From an uncultured Mycoplasmatota bacterium (GTDB lineage Bacteria; Bacillota_I; Bacilli_A; RF39; UBA660): a stretch of DNA of 35,707 nucleotides. The notes under the pieces were generated by a model. It searched no databases, had not been told where the DNA came from, and was given only the letters and a program-made list of their open reading frames with translations. The stretch is taken from NCBI GenBank assembly GCA_947649355.1, contig CANSRG010000008.1, positions 1-35,707 on the forward strand, given 5' to 3'. Position numbers and translations under genes: made by a program. This document shows, in pieces, positions 145-27,275 of the stretch (its first letter is position 1; every line of letters begins with the position of its first letter).

Positions 145-2208
145 ATGGAAACAATGGAAAATGCTTTAAAAAAGAGGAATCTTACTGTTTATGATTTTCA
201 ATATGCTTTACAACATTGTTCACTAAAAGATTATGGAATAATGTCTTTGCATACATTTTGTCAAAACTTATCTATAAGTGTTGCTACAGGAAGAAATTGG
301 ATTCGTTTAAAAAAAATTGATCCCTTGTTTTCTTATCAAAATTCTTTTTATTTTTCTGTAGAATATTTTGAAATGTTTCAAAAATCTTTGTTAAAAGAAA
401 CAAATCTTTTATTAAAAAATGGTCGTAACAAAAAGTTTATTTCAGGTAATTCTTTGTATAAATCCTATTTGTCGGCTCAATCTAAAAATGCGAAAGTTAT
501 TATGGAACTTATTGATACTTTAGAACAAGAGAATGTTTTTATTACTGATCAGGTAATTCTTTTTTTGTTAGTACAATGTGCTGTTGAATTACTATCTTCT
601 TTTGAAGGAATTTCTTATAATGTTTTTGATTATATTGAAGGATATACGTCTAGTCCTTATTGTTTTTTGATTGATGATTTTCAAATAGCTAGGGGAGAAT
701 TGTTTTCTTTTTTTCATAAACATCCAAGTCTTTTAAAAACCTATTATTATGAACCTTTTGAAGATGTATTGGGGTTTTTATATATTTCTTTAAAAAATCT
801 TGGTGAACGTAAAGCGATGGGGTCTTATTTTACTCCAACAAAAATTGTTAAAAAAATGTTAAATCAGTTATTTTCGATGAATTCTTGTTCTTGTAAAACG
901 GTGTTTGATCCTTGTTGTGGGACAGGTAATTTTCTTCTTCAACTTCCAGAAGATATTCCTTTTTCTAATGTTTACGGAAATGATATTGACTCTATAAGTG
1001 TTAAAATTACTCGTATATCTTATGCTTTAAAATATCAAATTCAAAATCCAGATATTATTTATTCACATATTACCAATACTAATTATTTGTGGGATGATAG
1101 TTTTATGTTTTTTGATTTTGTAGTTACGAATCCGCCTTGGGGTTATTTATATTCTTATGAAGAAAAAATGTATTTACGTTCTAGGTATCTTTCTGTTACT
1201 GGTGCTAATGTAGAATCTTTTGATGTTTTTATTGAACGGGCTTTATCTAGTTTAAAACCAGGTGGTGTCTTTTCTTTTGTTATTCCAGAATCTTTTTTGA
1301 ATGTAAAAGCTCATCTACCTATTCGGCATTTATTAAAGAATCATTCCATTCAATACTTAGAATTTTTAGGAAATGCTTTTGATCAGGTACAATGTCCATC
1401 TATTATTTTGCATGTGATAAAAGATGAGCCTTTTCATACAACCGGTATGATTGTTCGTGATAAAAAACGAGAATTTGTTATACAAAAAGAAAGAGAATTT
1501 ACTTTAGAATACTTTTCTTATTGGATGGATGATAATGAAGAAGATGTTATAAGAAAAATGGAAAATGTTTCTCCTAAAGTTACTCTTTTTGAAAATGCAA
1601 CTTTTGCTTTAGGAATTGTTACTGGAAATAATAAAAAATTTTTGTCTAGTACAAAAGAATTTCAAAATGAAATTGTTTTAAAGGGTGCTAATTTACTAAA
1701 ATATCGAATTATGAGTGAACATGCTTCTTATCTTTCTTTTAAGCCTCAGTTATTTCAACAAGTTTCTTCAGAAGCTATTTATCGTGCGGAAGAAAAATTA
1801 TTATATCGATTTGTTTCTAATCAACTTGTTTTTTCTTATGATAATAAGCAAACCCTTTCCTTAAATAGTGCAAATATATTGATTCCTAAAGTAGAAGGTT
1901 TAGATATAAAATATATTTTGGCTCTTTTTAATTCTAGACCTATGCAGTTTTATTTTAAGAAAAAGTTTCATTCTGTGAAAGTTTTAAAATCCCATATTGA
2001 ATCTTTTCCTATTCCTGTTATTTCTACTAATTCTCAGCAAGAAATTATTACTTTGGTTGATCAACTTCTTTTAGAAGAAAAGAAAGAAAAAGTTTTAACT
2101 CTTTATAATGAAATAGATAAACTTGTTGCTAAATTATATAAACTAGAGGAAAAAGAGTATCTCTTAATCTGTTCTTCTATGGATGGAGAAAATTTATTTT
2201 TATTTTAA
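145..2208 (+). CDS. HTH-containing N6-adenine DNA methyltransferase
   Basis: Predicted S-adenosylmethionine-dependent DNA adenine methyltransferase of the large N6_Mtase/Eco57I-TaqI-like type, 687 aa. A helix-turn-helix-like stretch lies near residues 36-60. A GSYFTPTKIV segment (226-235) precedes motif I DPCCGTGNF (255-263), and the catalytic motif NPPWGY is at 329-334. After about residue 470 the protein resembles a TaqI-type target-recognition region (a segment around KGANLLKY). No nuclease motif is visible and no restriction or specificity-subunit gene adjoins. It could therefore be an orphan regulatory methylase or the modification half of a system whose partner lies elsewhere. It has its own promoter and terminator, so it is not part of the rpsF operon. 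The methyltransferase call is firm; its biological role and target site are unknown. Confidence 0.85.
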   Translation: METMENALKKRNLTVYDFQYALQHCSLKDYGIMSLHTFCQNLSISVATGRNWIRLKKIDPLFSYQNSFYFSVEYFEMFQKSLLKETNLLLKNGRNKKFISGNSLYKSYLSAQSKNAKVIMELIDTLEQENVFITDQVILFLLVQCAVELLSSFEGISYNVFDYIEGYTSSPYCFLIDDFQIARGELFSFFHKHPSLLKTYYYEPFEDVLGFLYISLKNLGERKAMGSYFTPTKIVKKMLNQLFSMNSCSCKTVFDPCCGTGNFLLQLPEDIPFSNVYGNDIDSISVKITRISYALKYQIQNPDIIYSHITNTNYLWDDSFMFFDFVVTNPPWGYLYSYEEKMYLRSRYLSVTGANVESFDVFIERALSSLKPGGVFSFVIPESFLNVKAHLPIRHLLKNHSIQYLEFLGNAFDQVQCPSIILHVIKDEPFHTTGMIVRDKKREFVIQKEREFTLEYFSYWMDDNEEDVIRKMENVSPKVTLFENATFALGIVTGNNKKFLSSTKEFQNEIVLKGANLLKYRIMSEHASYLSFKPQLFQQVSSEAIYRAEEKLLYRFVSNQLVFSYDNKQTLSLNSANILIPKVEGLDIKYILALFNSRPMQFYFKKKFHSVKVLKSHIESFPIPVISTNSQQEIITLVDQLLLEEKKEKVLTLYNEIDKLVAKLYKLEEKEYLLICSSMDGENLFLF

Positions 2209-16791: not shown

Positions 16792-17439
16792 ATGTATAAT
16801 GAAGAGAAGAAGAAAAAAAAGAAAAATAAACAAGAAACGATATTTCATCATTTCTTTCATAAAAGAACTAAGCGACTTTTAACGAATTTAGATCGTTTGT
16901 TTTATAAGATTATGTGGTATCAAATTGCAGCATGTATCTCTATTATTATTATTGGCATTTTGCTTTTATTTTTTCCAGAGTTAAGTGATAAAGTAATTGG
17001 TGTTTTGTTTGGATTAAATATTTTATTTTTTGGTGGAGTGAATATATATGCTTATTTAAAAAGAAAAGATATTCCAATGTTTCAATTTCATTTATTTTAT
17101 GGAATTATAGGAATACTACTTGGTATTTTTACGATTCTTAATCCATTTTTCTTTACACAAATGATTACAATTTTTATTGGAATTTGGATATTATATATGG
17201 CGATTACTAAGATTGATTTTTCTTTTCGTTTAAAGAAATTAGGCGAGAAAGCTTGGTTATTGCTTTTAGTAAGTGCTTGTTTAGAAATATTTATGAGTAT
17301 TCTTATTTTTATCAATCCTTTTAGTGGATTAGCTATAACTAGACTTGCAGGAGCTTATTTTATTCTTTGTGGAATTGTAAATTGTAATGATGCGATTTTA
17401 ACAAAAAATAGAGCTTTTGATTTTTTAGAAAATTTATAA
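16792..17439 (+). CDS. DUF308/HdeD-like membrane protein
   Basis: 215 aa. A very Lys-rich cytoplasmic start (residues 5-13) and a short amphipathic region precede about six membrane helices arranged as three pairs (43-62, 66-87, 95-118, 122-140, 155-175, 180-200). The repeated pairs with GILLGIFTILNP-like turns are typical of DUF308/HdeD proteins, some of which relate to acid stress; no enzymatic residues are visible. The GAAGTG site precedes ATG 16792. There is no terminator after it, so transcription may run into the next gene through the G-tract. Confidence 0.7.
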   Translation: MYNEEKKKKKKNKQETIFHHFFHKRTKRLLTNLDRLFYKIMWYQIAACISIIIIGILLLFFPELSDKVIGVLFGLNILFFGGVNIYAYLKRKDIPMFQFHLFYGIIGILLGIFTILNPFFFTQMITIFIGIWILYMAITKIDFSFRLKKLGEKAWLLLLVSACLEIFMSILIFINPFSGLAITRLAGAYFILCGIVNCNDAILTKNRAFDFLENL

Positions 17440-17444
17440 TATTC

Positions 17445-17476
17445 TTGACAGGGGGGGGGGTATATTGTGATAAAAT
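17445..17476 (+). promoter_or_regulatory. Poly-G promoter, probable phase-variable switch
   Basis: A consensus TTGACA (17445-17450) is followed directly by ten G (17451-17460) and then TAAAAT (17471-17476), giving a 20-bp spacer at this tract length. Loss of three G would give the optimal 17 bp. An alternative TATATT (17461-17466) is only 10 bp away. Homopolymers of this length are slippage-prone, and tracts between -35 and -10 are a known phase-variation design (for example the poly-A of the Mycoplasma hyorhinis vlp genes). Function here is inferred. Confidence 0.65.
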
Positions 17477-17503
17477 CATCATAGGAAGCTATGGTGTTTT
17501 TAT

Positions 17504-19057
17504 ATGAAGTTAAAAAGATTTAAAGAGAAAAATAGAAAAAAAGAAAGTATGATACTATTTACAATCTTGTGTATCTTACTAATAGGAGGAGTGTTTTTCT
17601 ATTCTTCCTTTGCCTTATTTGAAGTAAAAGAAAACTTTAATATAATAAAAGGAAATGTCGAAAGTCCAGGAGATTTATATTTTGCTTATTATGTAGATGA
17701 TGTAGTAACAACGGAAATGCCAAATAAGAATAGTGGGTATACTCTATCAAGTAAATCAAGTTGTACTAATGGAGTCACGATTTCTTTTGATGACGAGAAT
17801 TGGACAGCTTATGTAAATTACTCTAATTATAAACAAGAAACAAGTTCTAGAACTAAATGTACTTTATATTTTGAAGAGAAAACATTTTCTAATTCTTTAA
17901 TAGCCTGTAGTCAAAGTGGAAAAAGTATATCTACTTGTTTAAACGAAAATGCTAATTTGAACGAAAAAGAATTAGCATATGATGAAACTATAGATAATAA
18001 TCTAAGATTTATTAGTTCTAATCCAAGTAATTATGTAACTTTTGGTGATGTTTATGAAACTGATATTTATGATATATACAATAGTGAAGAAAAGTGGTAT
18101 TTTGGCCTTAATTTAACATCAATGGAAGAGTGTGAAACCTTTAAAATAGATAATAATATATTAGAAGAAACGACTTGTCAAAAAACACATTCTCGAGGTG
18201 ATAAAATTTTATGGCGAATGATAGGTAGTATGGAAAATATAGAAACTTCTAGTGGAGAAAAAGGAGCGAGAATAAAACTAATAAGAAATGATTCTATAGG
18301 GCCATGGAGTTGGGATTCCTCAGAATCAAGTATCAATCGTGGGCTTGGTGTCAATGAATGGTCAGAATCAGATATGAAAACCATATTAAATGAATATTAC
18401 TATAATGGCTTATCGAATCAAACTTGCCCTGTGAGCTATAGTAATACATCTCTTCCATGTGATTTTAGTAAGATTAAGTTTCCTGAAAATGCCAAAAGCA
18501 TGATAGAAGAAGTGGTCTGGAATACAGGAAGTAATGAAGTAGAAATAAGTTTTGAGAAGATAAAAACCTCAAAATTTTATGAATATGAAAGAAGTAATAA
18601 TACAGGAAAAAACTGTTCAAGTGTAAAATATTGTAATGACGATATAGAAAGAACAATAAAATGGACAGGGAAAATAGGATTATCGTATCCAAGTGATTAT
18701 GGTTATGCAACAAGTGGAGGAAGTAAAATAAATAGAGAAACTTGTTTAAATACAAATCTTTATGATTGGTATGAAGATATGTTTGATTCAAGTACCATAA
18801 GAGGAATAAGTGATTGTTATCAAAATGATTGGTTTTATAATAATGGAATACCTCAATATTTTATGACTCCATATGCAGAATCTAATAATAATTCTTTAGT
18901 TTTTTTAGCATATTATGGTAAAGTGTTTATAAAAGACGCGAGTGACTCTTTATCTTATGATAATGCCTTTTGGTCTCGGCCAACTATATACTTAAAAAAT
19001 GAAGTAAAAATTATAGAAGGTATTGGAACTTCTGATAACCCTTATGTTCTTAAATAA
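17504..19057 (+). CDS. Membrane-anchored surface protein, unknown function
   Basis: 517 aa. A basic start, one membrane helix (about 17-38), then a large extracytoplasmic part rich in Ser, Asn, Thr, Tyr and paired Cys. The sequence after the helix (IKGNVESPGDLYFAYYVDD, then a Cys-containing beta-rich stretch to about 128) and the end (WTGKIGLSYPSDYGYATSGG; WSRPTIYLKNEV; GTSDNPYVLK) look like uncharacterised exported proteins of gut Bacilli with a DUF6273-like C-terminal module. That resemblance is recalled, not computed. It has no LPXTG motif. Start ATG 17504 has GGTG 7 nt upstream. The G10 promoter tract makes it a candidate on/off surface antigen or adhesin. Confidence 0.6.
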   Translation: MKLKRFKEKNRKKESMILFTILCILLIGGVFFYSSFALFEVKENFNIIKGNVESPGDLYFAYYVDDVVTTEMPNKNSGYTLSSKSSCTNGVTISFDDENWTAYVNYSNYKQETSSRTKCTLYFEEKTFSNSLIACSQSGKSISTCLNENANLNEKELAYDETIDNNLRFISSNPSNYVTFGDVYETDIYDIYNSEEKWYFGLNLTSMEECETFKIDNNILEETTCQKTHSRGDKILWRMIGSMENIETSSGEKGARIKLIRNDSIGPWSWDSSESSINRGLGVNEWSESDMKTILNEYYYNGLSNQTCPVSYSNTSLPCDFSKIKFPENAKSMIEEVVWNTGSNEVEISFEKIKTSKFYEYERSNNTGKNCSSVKYCNDDIERTIKWTGKIGLSYPSDYGYATSGGSKINRETCLNTNLYDWYEDMFDSSTIRGISDCYQNDWFYNNGIPQYFMTPYAESNNNSLVFLAYYGKVFIKDASDSLSYDNAFWSRPTIYLKNEVKIIEGIGTSDNPYVLK

Positions 19058-19058
19058 G

Positions 19059-19083
19059 ATTCATTTAAAAGATGAATTTTTTT
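19059..19083 (+). terminator. Terminator of the surface-protein gene
   Basis: ATTCAT (19059-19064) pairs with ATGAAT (19072-19077), followed by a run of T. Confidence 0.65.
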
Positions 19084-19107
19084 GATAGAAATAAGTAAAA
19101 GTAAAAT

Positions 19108-19155: not shown

Positions 19156-19740
19156 ATGAAAATTGATTCTGTAGAGCTTACTCATATTGCAGTAAGACAA
19201 AGTCAGTATCCTGAACCTTTTTCTCCTGAGTTTTTACTTGTTGGTCGTAGTAATGTAGGGAAATCTAGTTTTATCAATGCTATTATTGGAAGGAAAAACT
19301 ATGCGAGAACTTCTAGTAAACCTGGAAAGACTCAAACACTTAACTTTTATCATATCAATCAATCTTTTTATTTAGTGGACGTGCCTGGTTATGGGTATTC
19401 TAAATTATCAAAAGATAGTGATCGTAAAATTGGGATGATGATTGAAGAGTATTTGAAAAGTAGAACAAATCTTCATCATGTTTTTATGCTTATTGATTAT
19501 CGTCATAAACCTACTGAAGATGATATTTTAATGTATGATTTTTTGAAATATTATAATATTCCTATTACTATCGTGGCTACTAAATATGATAAAGTAGGTG
19601 CATCTATGCGAGCAAAGCAAGATAAACTTATTAAAGATACTTTAAAATTAACTACTCTATTTGTACATTTTTCTTCTACAACAAAAAAAGGAAGAGAAGA
19701 AATATATAAAATTATGGGAGATTCTTTAAACATTTCTTGA
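19156..19740 (+). CDS. ysxC: YsxC/EngB ribosome-assembly GTPase
   Basis: 194 aa, TRAFAC-class GTPase of the YihA/EngB/YsxC family, required for 50S subunit maturation. G1 GRSNVGKSS, the switch I region SSKPGKTQTLNFY, G3 DVPGYGYSKL and G4 TKYDK (usual TKADK) are followed by a short SS-containing G5. Normal family length. ATG 19156 is preceded by GAGGTG. It is followed by secG, with the ysxC stop codon 50 nt before the secG start. Confidence 0.95.
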   Translation: MKIDSVELTHIAVRQSQYPEPFSPEFLLVGRSNVGKSSFINAIIGRKNYARTSSKPGKTQTLNFYHINQSFYLVDVPGYGYSKLSKDSDRKIGMMIEEYLKSRTNLHHVFMLIDYRHKPTEDDILMYDFLKYYNIPITIVATKYDKVGASMRAKQDKLIKDTLKLTTLFVHFSSTTKKGREEIYKIMGDSLNIS

Positions 19741-26857: not shown

Positions 26858-26886
26858 CCCATTATCAAGTGATAATGGGGGGGGGG
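26858..26886. repeat. Hairpin running into a second G10 tract
   Basis: CCCATTATC (26858-26866) is inverted as GATAATGGG (26871-26879), which continues into ten consecutive G (26877-26886). TTGTGATATATT follows (26887-26898). It lies just outside the right end of the insertion element. The region from here to 26996 holds no other recognised feature. Confidence 0.6.
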
Positions 26887-26996: not shown

Positions 26997-27275
26997 TTGC
27001 AAACTGATACACAAAGTGGTACACAAACTGATACACAAAGTGGTATACAAAGTGATACACAAAGTAATAGATTTCATACAATACAGAAAAAAATATTAGA
27101 ATATTGTATTGAACCGAGAACATCAAAAGAAATCCGAGATTATATAGGAATAAGTTCGAAAAGTTATGTTGCAACTAATATATTGAAACCAATGATTGAT
27201 AGTAAAAAATTAGAATATACAAATAAAAATAGTACCAATGCTCGAAATCAAAAATATGTTACATACAAAAGATAA
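26997..27275 (+). pseudogene. C-terminal remnant of an AlbA_2/AAA_4-type DNA-binding protein
   Basis: 92 codons from a TTG without a convincing ribosome-binding site. The first 24 residues are four-residue repeats (QTDT, QSGT, QSGI, QSDT). The rest (KKILEYCIEPRTSKEIRDYIG and NILKPMIDSKKLEYTNKN) is a winged-helix. It resembles the last domain of the large COG2865-type predicted transcriptional regulators, including the closing NARNQKYV. The N-terminal 300 or more residues are absent and the frame is closed by stops upstream. The fragment may or may not be expressed. Confidence 0.5.
27000..27071 (+). repeat. 12-bp tandem repeats
   Basis: Six units of CAA-A(C/G)T-(G/A)(A/G)T-A(C/T)A type in frame, alternating in a 24-bp higher-order pattern, encoding the QTDT/QSGT repeats. 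Confidence 0.7.

Follow-up and report, generated by a model that had tools for sequence, protein, structure and literature searches.

A poly-G tract in the promoter spacer of a surface-protein gene as a probable phase-variation switch in an uncultured RF39-type bacterium

Homopolymer tracts in known systems

In pathogens, promoter-spacer slippage is known from single genes or small numbers of them. In Mycoplasma hyorhinis a homopolymer occupies the promoter spacers of the vlp surface lipoprotein family, the tract being poly-A and the genes forming one clustered family. Campylobacter and Helicobacter carry many poly-G tracts of about 8-11 residues in each small genome, affecting surface structures, and their poly-G/C tracts lie mostly inside coding sequence. 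The textbook phase-variation loci with spacer homopolymers are porA, fetA and opc of Neisseria, in which the tract is located between the -35 and -10 elements of a surface-protein promoter and its length alters both spacing and transcription (PMC2791445, PMC5320596). The PARCEL (DUF285) lipoproteins of M. capricolum and M. agalactiae, which are lipobox proteins, have homopolymeric or dinucleotide (TA) contingency tracts in their 5' flanks or poly-G in the coding start, with empty sites in relatives (PMC2996958).

Here, we describe a G10 tract within the promoter of a surface-protein gene in a stretch of 35,707 nucleotides (the window) from an uncultured Bacilli lineage, and we contend that this element is very probably a slipped-strand promoter-spacer phase-variation switch, the organism probably varying its surface through stuttering DNA copying. 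The arrangement is that of the Neisseria loci, but about 37 genes are involved in this genome instead of one to three, the products are single-anchor proteins and not outer-membrane proteins, and the resting spacer measures 19-20 bp. With vlp it shares the spacer homopolymer, but not the poly-A composition or the single clustered family. Most of the downstream genes belong to the same repeat family (TIGR02167) as the mycoplasma PARCEL proteins; their N-termini, however, show no evident lipobox, the lineage has cell-wall genes (FemAB is encoded in the window), and the promoters are uniformly poly-G. In contrast to Campylobacter and Helicobacter, the tracts are found mostly in promoters, with few coding examples.

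Given the porA/fetA/opc and PARCEL precedents, the mechanism is of an already known kind. Judged against the searchable literature, what is new is the scale, the uniform design, the strand bias, the off-optimum set-point and the lineage; nothing on phase variation in an RF39-type lineage was found in the literature searched, the coverage of which is incomplete. Spacer slippage appears here to be the usual means by which dozens of surface genes in each genome are controlled, in a host lineage that is uncultured, probably commensal and spread over many genera. Metagenome reads that already exist can thereby serve for a direct test of surface variation in the healthy gut.

The promoter, its gene and its neighbors

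The promoter begins with a -35 hexamer of exact consensus, TTGACA (17445-17450, + strand), which is followed by the G10 tract on the coding strand (17451-17460), the predicted slippage site, by the remainder of the spacer, TATATTGTGA (17461-17470), and by the -10 hexamer TAAAAT (17471-17476), giving a spacer of 20 bp. Re-reading of the sequence thus bore out the hexamers, the tract and the spacer length that the first-pass annotation had given; the G10 does adjoin TTGACA as it had claimed, but TAAAAT does not come directly after the G run, ten bases lying between them. Those ten bases include the TG of an extended -10 (TGaTAAAAT), positioned two bases 5' of the hexamer (TGATAAAAT), and a TGN precedes the -10 in 81 of the 112 listed promoters of the genus. 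The 5' leader (17477-17503, +) is near-identical across paralogous cassettes and contains a short CATAG/CTATG inverted repeat, and the ATG of a 517-aa open reading frame follows at 17504, confirming a gene 27 bp 3' of the -10.

This gene (17504-19057, +) encodes a family W surface protein with a basic N-terminus, one N-terminal membrane helix (helix 2-28 of the model) and a long part predicted to be extracytoplasmic. Neither Pfam nor NCBIfam assigned it confidently to a family (the best was DUF4179 at an E value of 0.04), the TIGR02167 and PF03382 (PARCEL/DUF285) repeats gave no match in this protein, and its AlphaFold2 model is poor, with a mean pLDDT of 43. The earlier description of an exported, single-anchor client is nevertheless supported by the predicted helix and long exported part together with the PARCEL surface proteins at sister loci, and exposure on the cell surface may be presumed. 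Paralogues of family W share their N-terminal halves, whereas their C-terminal halves differ and have been swapped between paralogues. A terminator-like inverted repeat (GATTCAT...ATGAATTTTTTT; 19058-19085, +) lies 3' of the gene.

Upstream, a DUF308 membrane protein is encoded at 16792-17439 (+), and its stop codon is separated from the -35 by 5 bp that hold no terminator; downstream, an EngB-type GTPase is encoded at 19156-19740 (+). In at least nine congeners engB directly follows the DUF308 gene without a surface gene, mostly with a terminator-like repeat between the two, and from this empty site it follows that the promoter and gene of the window are an inserted cassette. Since no terminator separates the DUF308 gene from the -35, some read-through is possible and could blunt the switch at this locus. 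In a stronger form of this argument, the switch would be real in its form and irrelevant here, with transcription simply entering from the DUF308 gene. The 5-bp gap speaks for this, as does the terminator that congeners have directly after DUF308, but both the gene and its promoter, which has a perfect -35 and an extended -10, are intact, and we regard irrelevance at this locus as unlikely. At the start of the window (145-2208) an Eco57I/TaqI-like restriction-modification methylase is encoded.

Only two runs of six or more G or C residues occur in the window, both of them G10, at 17451 and 26877. The second (26877-26886, +) has a -10-like TTGTGATATATT on its 3' side, but its -35 is poor and no gene for a surface protein follows, and it is probably a relic of the same promoter module. 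The short open reading frame after this tract (26997-27275) contains QTDTQSG repeats.

A genome-wide set of poly-G promoters

The genome (1.46 Mb in 86 contigs, a fragmented assembly) was surveyed by pattern searches and by reading fetched sequence stretches. It contains 48 runs of G7 or longer, of which two, G50 and G23, lie at contig ends and look like artefacts of sequencing origin. About 37 of the 46 others are flanked by a -35 and a TANNNT hexamer, and in every case it is the coding strand that carries the G residues, so that the window's tract has 36 comparable ones in its genome; their lengths are G10 in 27, G9 in eight and G11 in two, with the weak 26877 site included. Apart from the contig-end artefacts, the remaining G7+ tracts are mostly within coding sequence. 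The promoter pattern had 39 matches in this genome against none for the reversed control, and a search for its poly-C version found none. A third-order Markov model of the window, applied to both strands of the whole 1.46-Mb genome, predicts about one run of G8+ and 0.03 runs of G10+, where dozens are present.

The promoters form three groups, TTGACA-G-TAYATTGTGATAAAAT (the type in the window), TTGACTTA-G-TATGATGGTACAAT and TTGACTTTTA-G-TTATGGTAGAAT, the flanks of which differ while each gives a 20-bp spacer at G10. Among the readable clients, at least 18 have a PARCEL/DUF285-type N-terminus, four belong to family W and one is prepilin-like, and full-length proteins at sister loci (L061, L064 and L069) were confirmed as PARCEL/DUF285 by TIGR02167/PF03382 repeats. 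About fourteen further clients are cut short by the end of a contig, as the poly-G promoter repeats are where contigs break. PARCEL repeats and family W domains are carried by many open reading frames of the genome. Taken together, the roughly 37 switches would constitute a combinatorial surface-variation system operating on two protein families.

The first-pass annotation had judged a G10 run improbable by chance and had proposed a search for further TTGACA-poly(G)-TATAAT-like promoters in the same genome, and the census agrees with it on the first point and supplied about 37 such promoters on the second. Its reading of the locus as a probable switch is strengthened by this repetition, by the surface-protein clients, by the recurrence in congeners and by the length differences between sister copies; its picture of a single switch gives way to that of a regulon. 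The tract is dispensable for family W, two intact paralogues of which lack a long one: L147 (G000:C11) has A4G5 and a 19-bp spacer, and L146 (G000:C20) a decayed -35. Both are apparently locked versions of the poly-G switch.

Tract-length differences and reading-frame versions

Within this genome, 16 pairs of promoters have at most one difference in the 35 bp downstream, and the number of G residues differs in seven of them. On one contig of G060, a genome of another genus, three promoters are identical but for their tracts of G9, G10 and G11. The window's own promoter type is represented by six fully readable copies, all of them G10, a point against the switch reading, and length variation at the window's own tract is a prediction.

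Family W is associated with poly-G in a second architecture. In the rabbit-gut MAG CANQRX01, eight family W homologues (L106-L113) have a G10 inside the coding start, about 27 codons in, and in all eight this length stops translation early, while G9 or G12 would open the long frame; the G9 in the coding start of L071, in the window's genome, is likewise out of frame. With a coding-start G10 in a relative and a promoter G10 here, family W is placed under a poly-G switch in two different ways, although no frame switch is found at the window locus, where the tract lies upstream of the -10.

Loss of mismatch repair can be ruled out as the cause of slippage, as mutS is intact in nearly all congeners, and for the same reason slippage may be slow.

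Other coding tracts of this genome were also noted. L075 (G000:C16) has a G11 inside another coding sequence, with a stop at 156 as it stands and 242 aa at G10, and L085 (G000:C27:4983) has a G10 that is the open length, giving 280 aa; as judged from their frames, both are possible translational switches in non-surface genes. At L062 (G000:C3:38551) a G9 separates open reading frames of 298 and 601 aa that G8 would fuse into one of 895 aa, and the GGGAGGGGG there may be a ribosome-binding site instead.

Spacer set-point and the proposed mechanism

Spacer lengths were counted among the matches listed per genome (112 poly-G promoters of the genus, 135 ordinary ones and 113 from other genera). 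Among the listed poly-G promoters of the genus a spacer of 19-20 bp is by far the commonest (89 of 112), with 20 bp in 58, 19 in 31, 21 in ten, 22 in six, 18 in five, and 17 and 25 in one each, whereas ordinary TTGACA-TGNTATAAT promoters of the genus have 16-18 bp in 119 of the 135 listed. In the 112 listed genus promoters longer tracts go with shorter flanks (r=-0.58, p=2e-11), showing that the two compensate and that the spacer is kept near 20 bp, a constraint with a bearing on the predicted effect of tract length on transcription. An E. coli library gave high expression with spacers of 15-19 bp and clearly lower expression beyond (PMC8695583).

In the mechanism that we propose, replication slippage would alter the number of G residues between the -35 and the -10, hence the length of the spacer, and the changed spacer would alter how often the housekeeping RNA polymerase initiates at the surface-protein gene. 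The resting G10, with its 20 bp, would most likely lie at, or just past, the upper limit of the spacer lengths that are active; a single deletion (G9, 19 bp) would then raise expression and insertions would lower it. The idea that G7, with an ideal 17 bp, is the ON state that the switch needs appears unlikely in view of the 19-20 bp that the genus keeps, the compensating lengths and the activity of the E. coli library at 15-19 bp. Since poly-G promoters rest at 19-20 bp and ordinary ones at 16-18 bp, one slip may suffice, and G10 to G9 is the plausible step, G7 being probably unneeded. L066, in which G10 with a shortened flank gives an 18-bp spacer, and L147, with its 19-bp spacer and intact gene, are consistent with this one-slip model without proving it.

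The listed promoters of other genera of the family have spacer peaks at 15-16 and at 19-20 bp, with 17-18 bp scarcer (18 of 113). Resting spacers of 15-16 bp, which are frequent there, would count as active by the E. coli library, and the equation of resting with OFF is therefore not general. It can be speculated, as a tentative reading that we hold to be somewhat short of even, that the tracts form a family-wide contingency regulon of genome scale, built from coding-strand poly-G promoters, in which tract and flanks have evolved together to leave the resting spacer off-optimum by a genus-specific amount (about 20 bp here, 15-16 bp in several others), and, jointly with this, that the set-point keeps the majority of surface genes low while a steady minority is on. 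The resting spacer lengths across genera offer many natural replicates for how contingency loci are tuned.

The constancy of the spacer could also be read in another way. A shared activator resembling MerR might distort an over-long spacer of 19-20 bp, the poly-G then being a fixed structural or binding element that does not slip; the maintenance of about 20 bp through compensating tract and flank lengths would fit, and MerR-family promoters have 19-20-bp spacers (PMC8113463). The spacer length alone, however, fits the MerR type, as the spacer (G10 plus the ten bases after it) contains no dyad operator, the number of G residues differs between near-identical copies, other genera have 15-16 bp spacers or tracts of G14-G16, and a relative switches family W through the reading frame. 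A MerR-like arrangement is therefore very unlikely, and the slippage switch remains the preferred reading.

Cassette structure and recombination

The family W cassettes have a module in common that has the -35 as its exact left limit and extends into the gene, the bases upstream differing among copies. It may be asked whether the tract and its flanks serve mainly as a recombination handle by which surface-gene cassettes are swapped, duplicated or converted, the length of the tract being of little account. The limits of the module, the contig breaks at these repeats, the empty site in congeners and the exchange of C-terminal halves among paralogues are all in keeping with such a handle, but it leaves unexplained the strand bias, the position between the hexamers in unrelated promoter groups and genera, and the constraint on the spacer. 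As the main function we consider it very unlikely; as a second function beside the switch it is compatible with our reading.

Distribution in the genus, order and class

In a set of fragmented assemblies, one per species, the pattern was present in 33 of the 36 congener genomes examined, with up to 92 matches each and at most one per genome for the reversed control. Across the order it was detected in 75 of 288 genomes and 30 of 102 genera, the reversed control matching in three genomes and the poly-C version in two of the 288, and of the class members that lie beyond the family (some 341) about 11 were positive, mostly with one site apiece. The strand controls and this spread tie the tract to the coding strand and largely to one family. 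An origin by chance or assembly artefact, which the contig-end G50 and G23 do resemble, has a negligible probability and is refuted by the Markov expectation for G10 runs and by the recurrence of this architecture in numerous genomes that were assembled separately, with controls near zero.

Some promoters differ from the common design. G298, a genome of another genus, has G14-G16 right up to the -10 (TTGACAAAGTAG...GTATAAT) with spacers of 19-21 bp, which would represent a different build of the same switch as far as sequence can tell. G439, from another family of the class, has three similar TTGACAC-G9 promoters with a 19-bp spacer, possibly of independent origin. Several reversed-control matches are concentrated in a few genomes (G143, G329, G133 and G204), which suggests another G-tract family with different surroundings.
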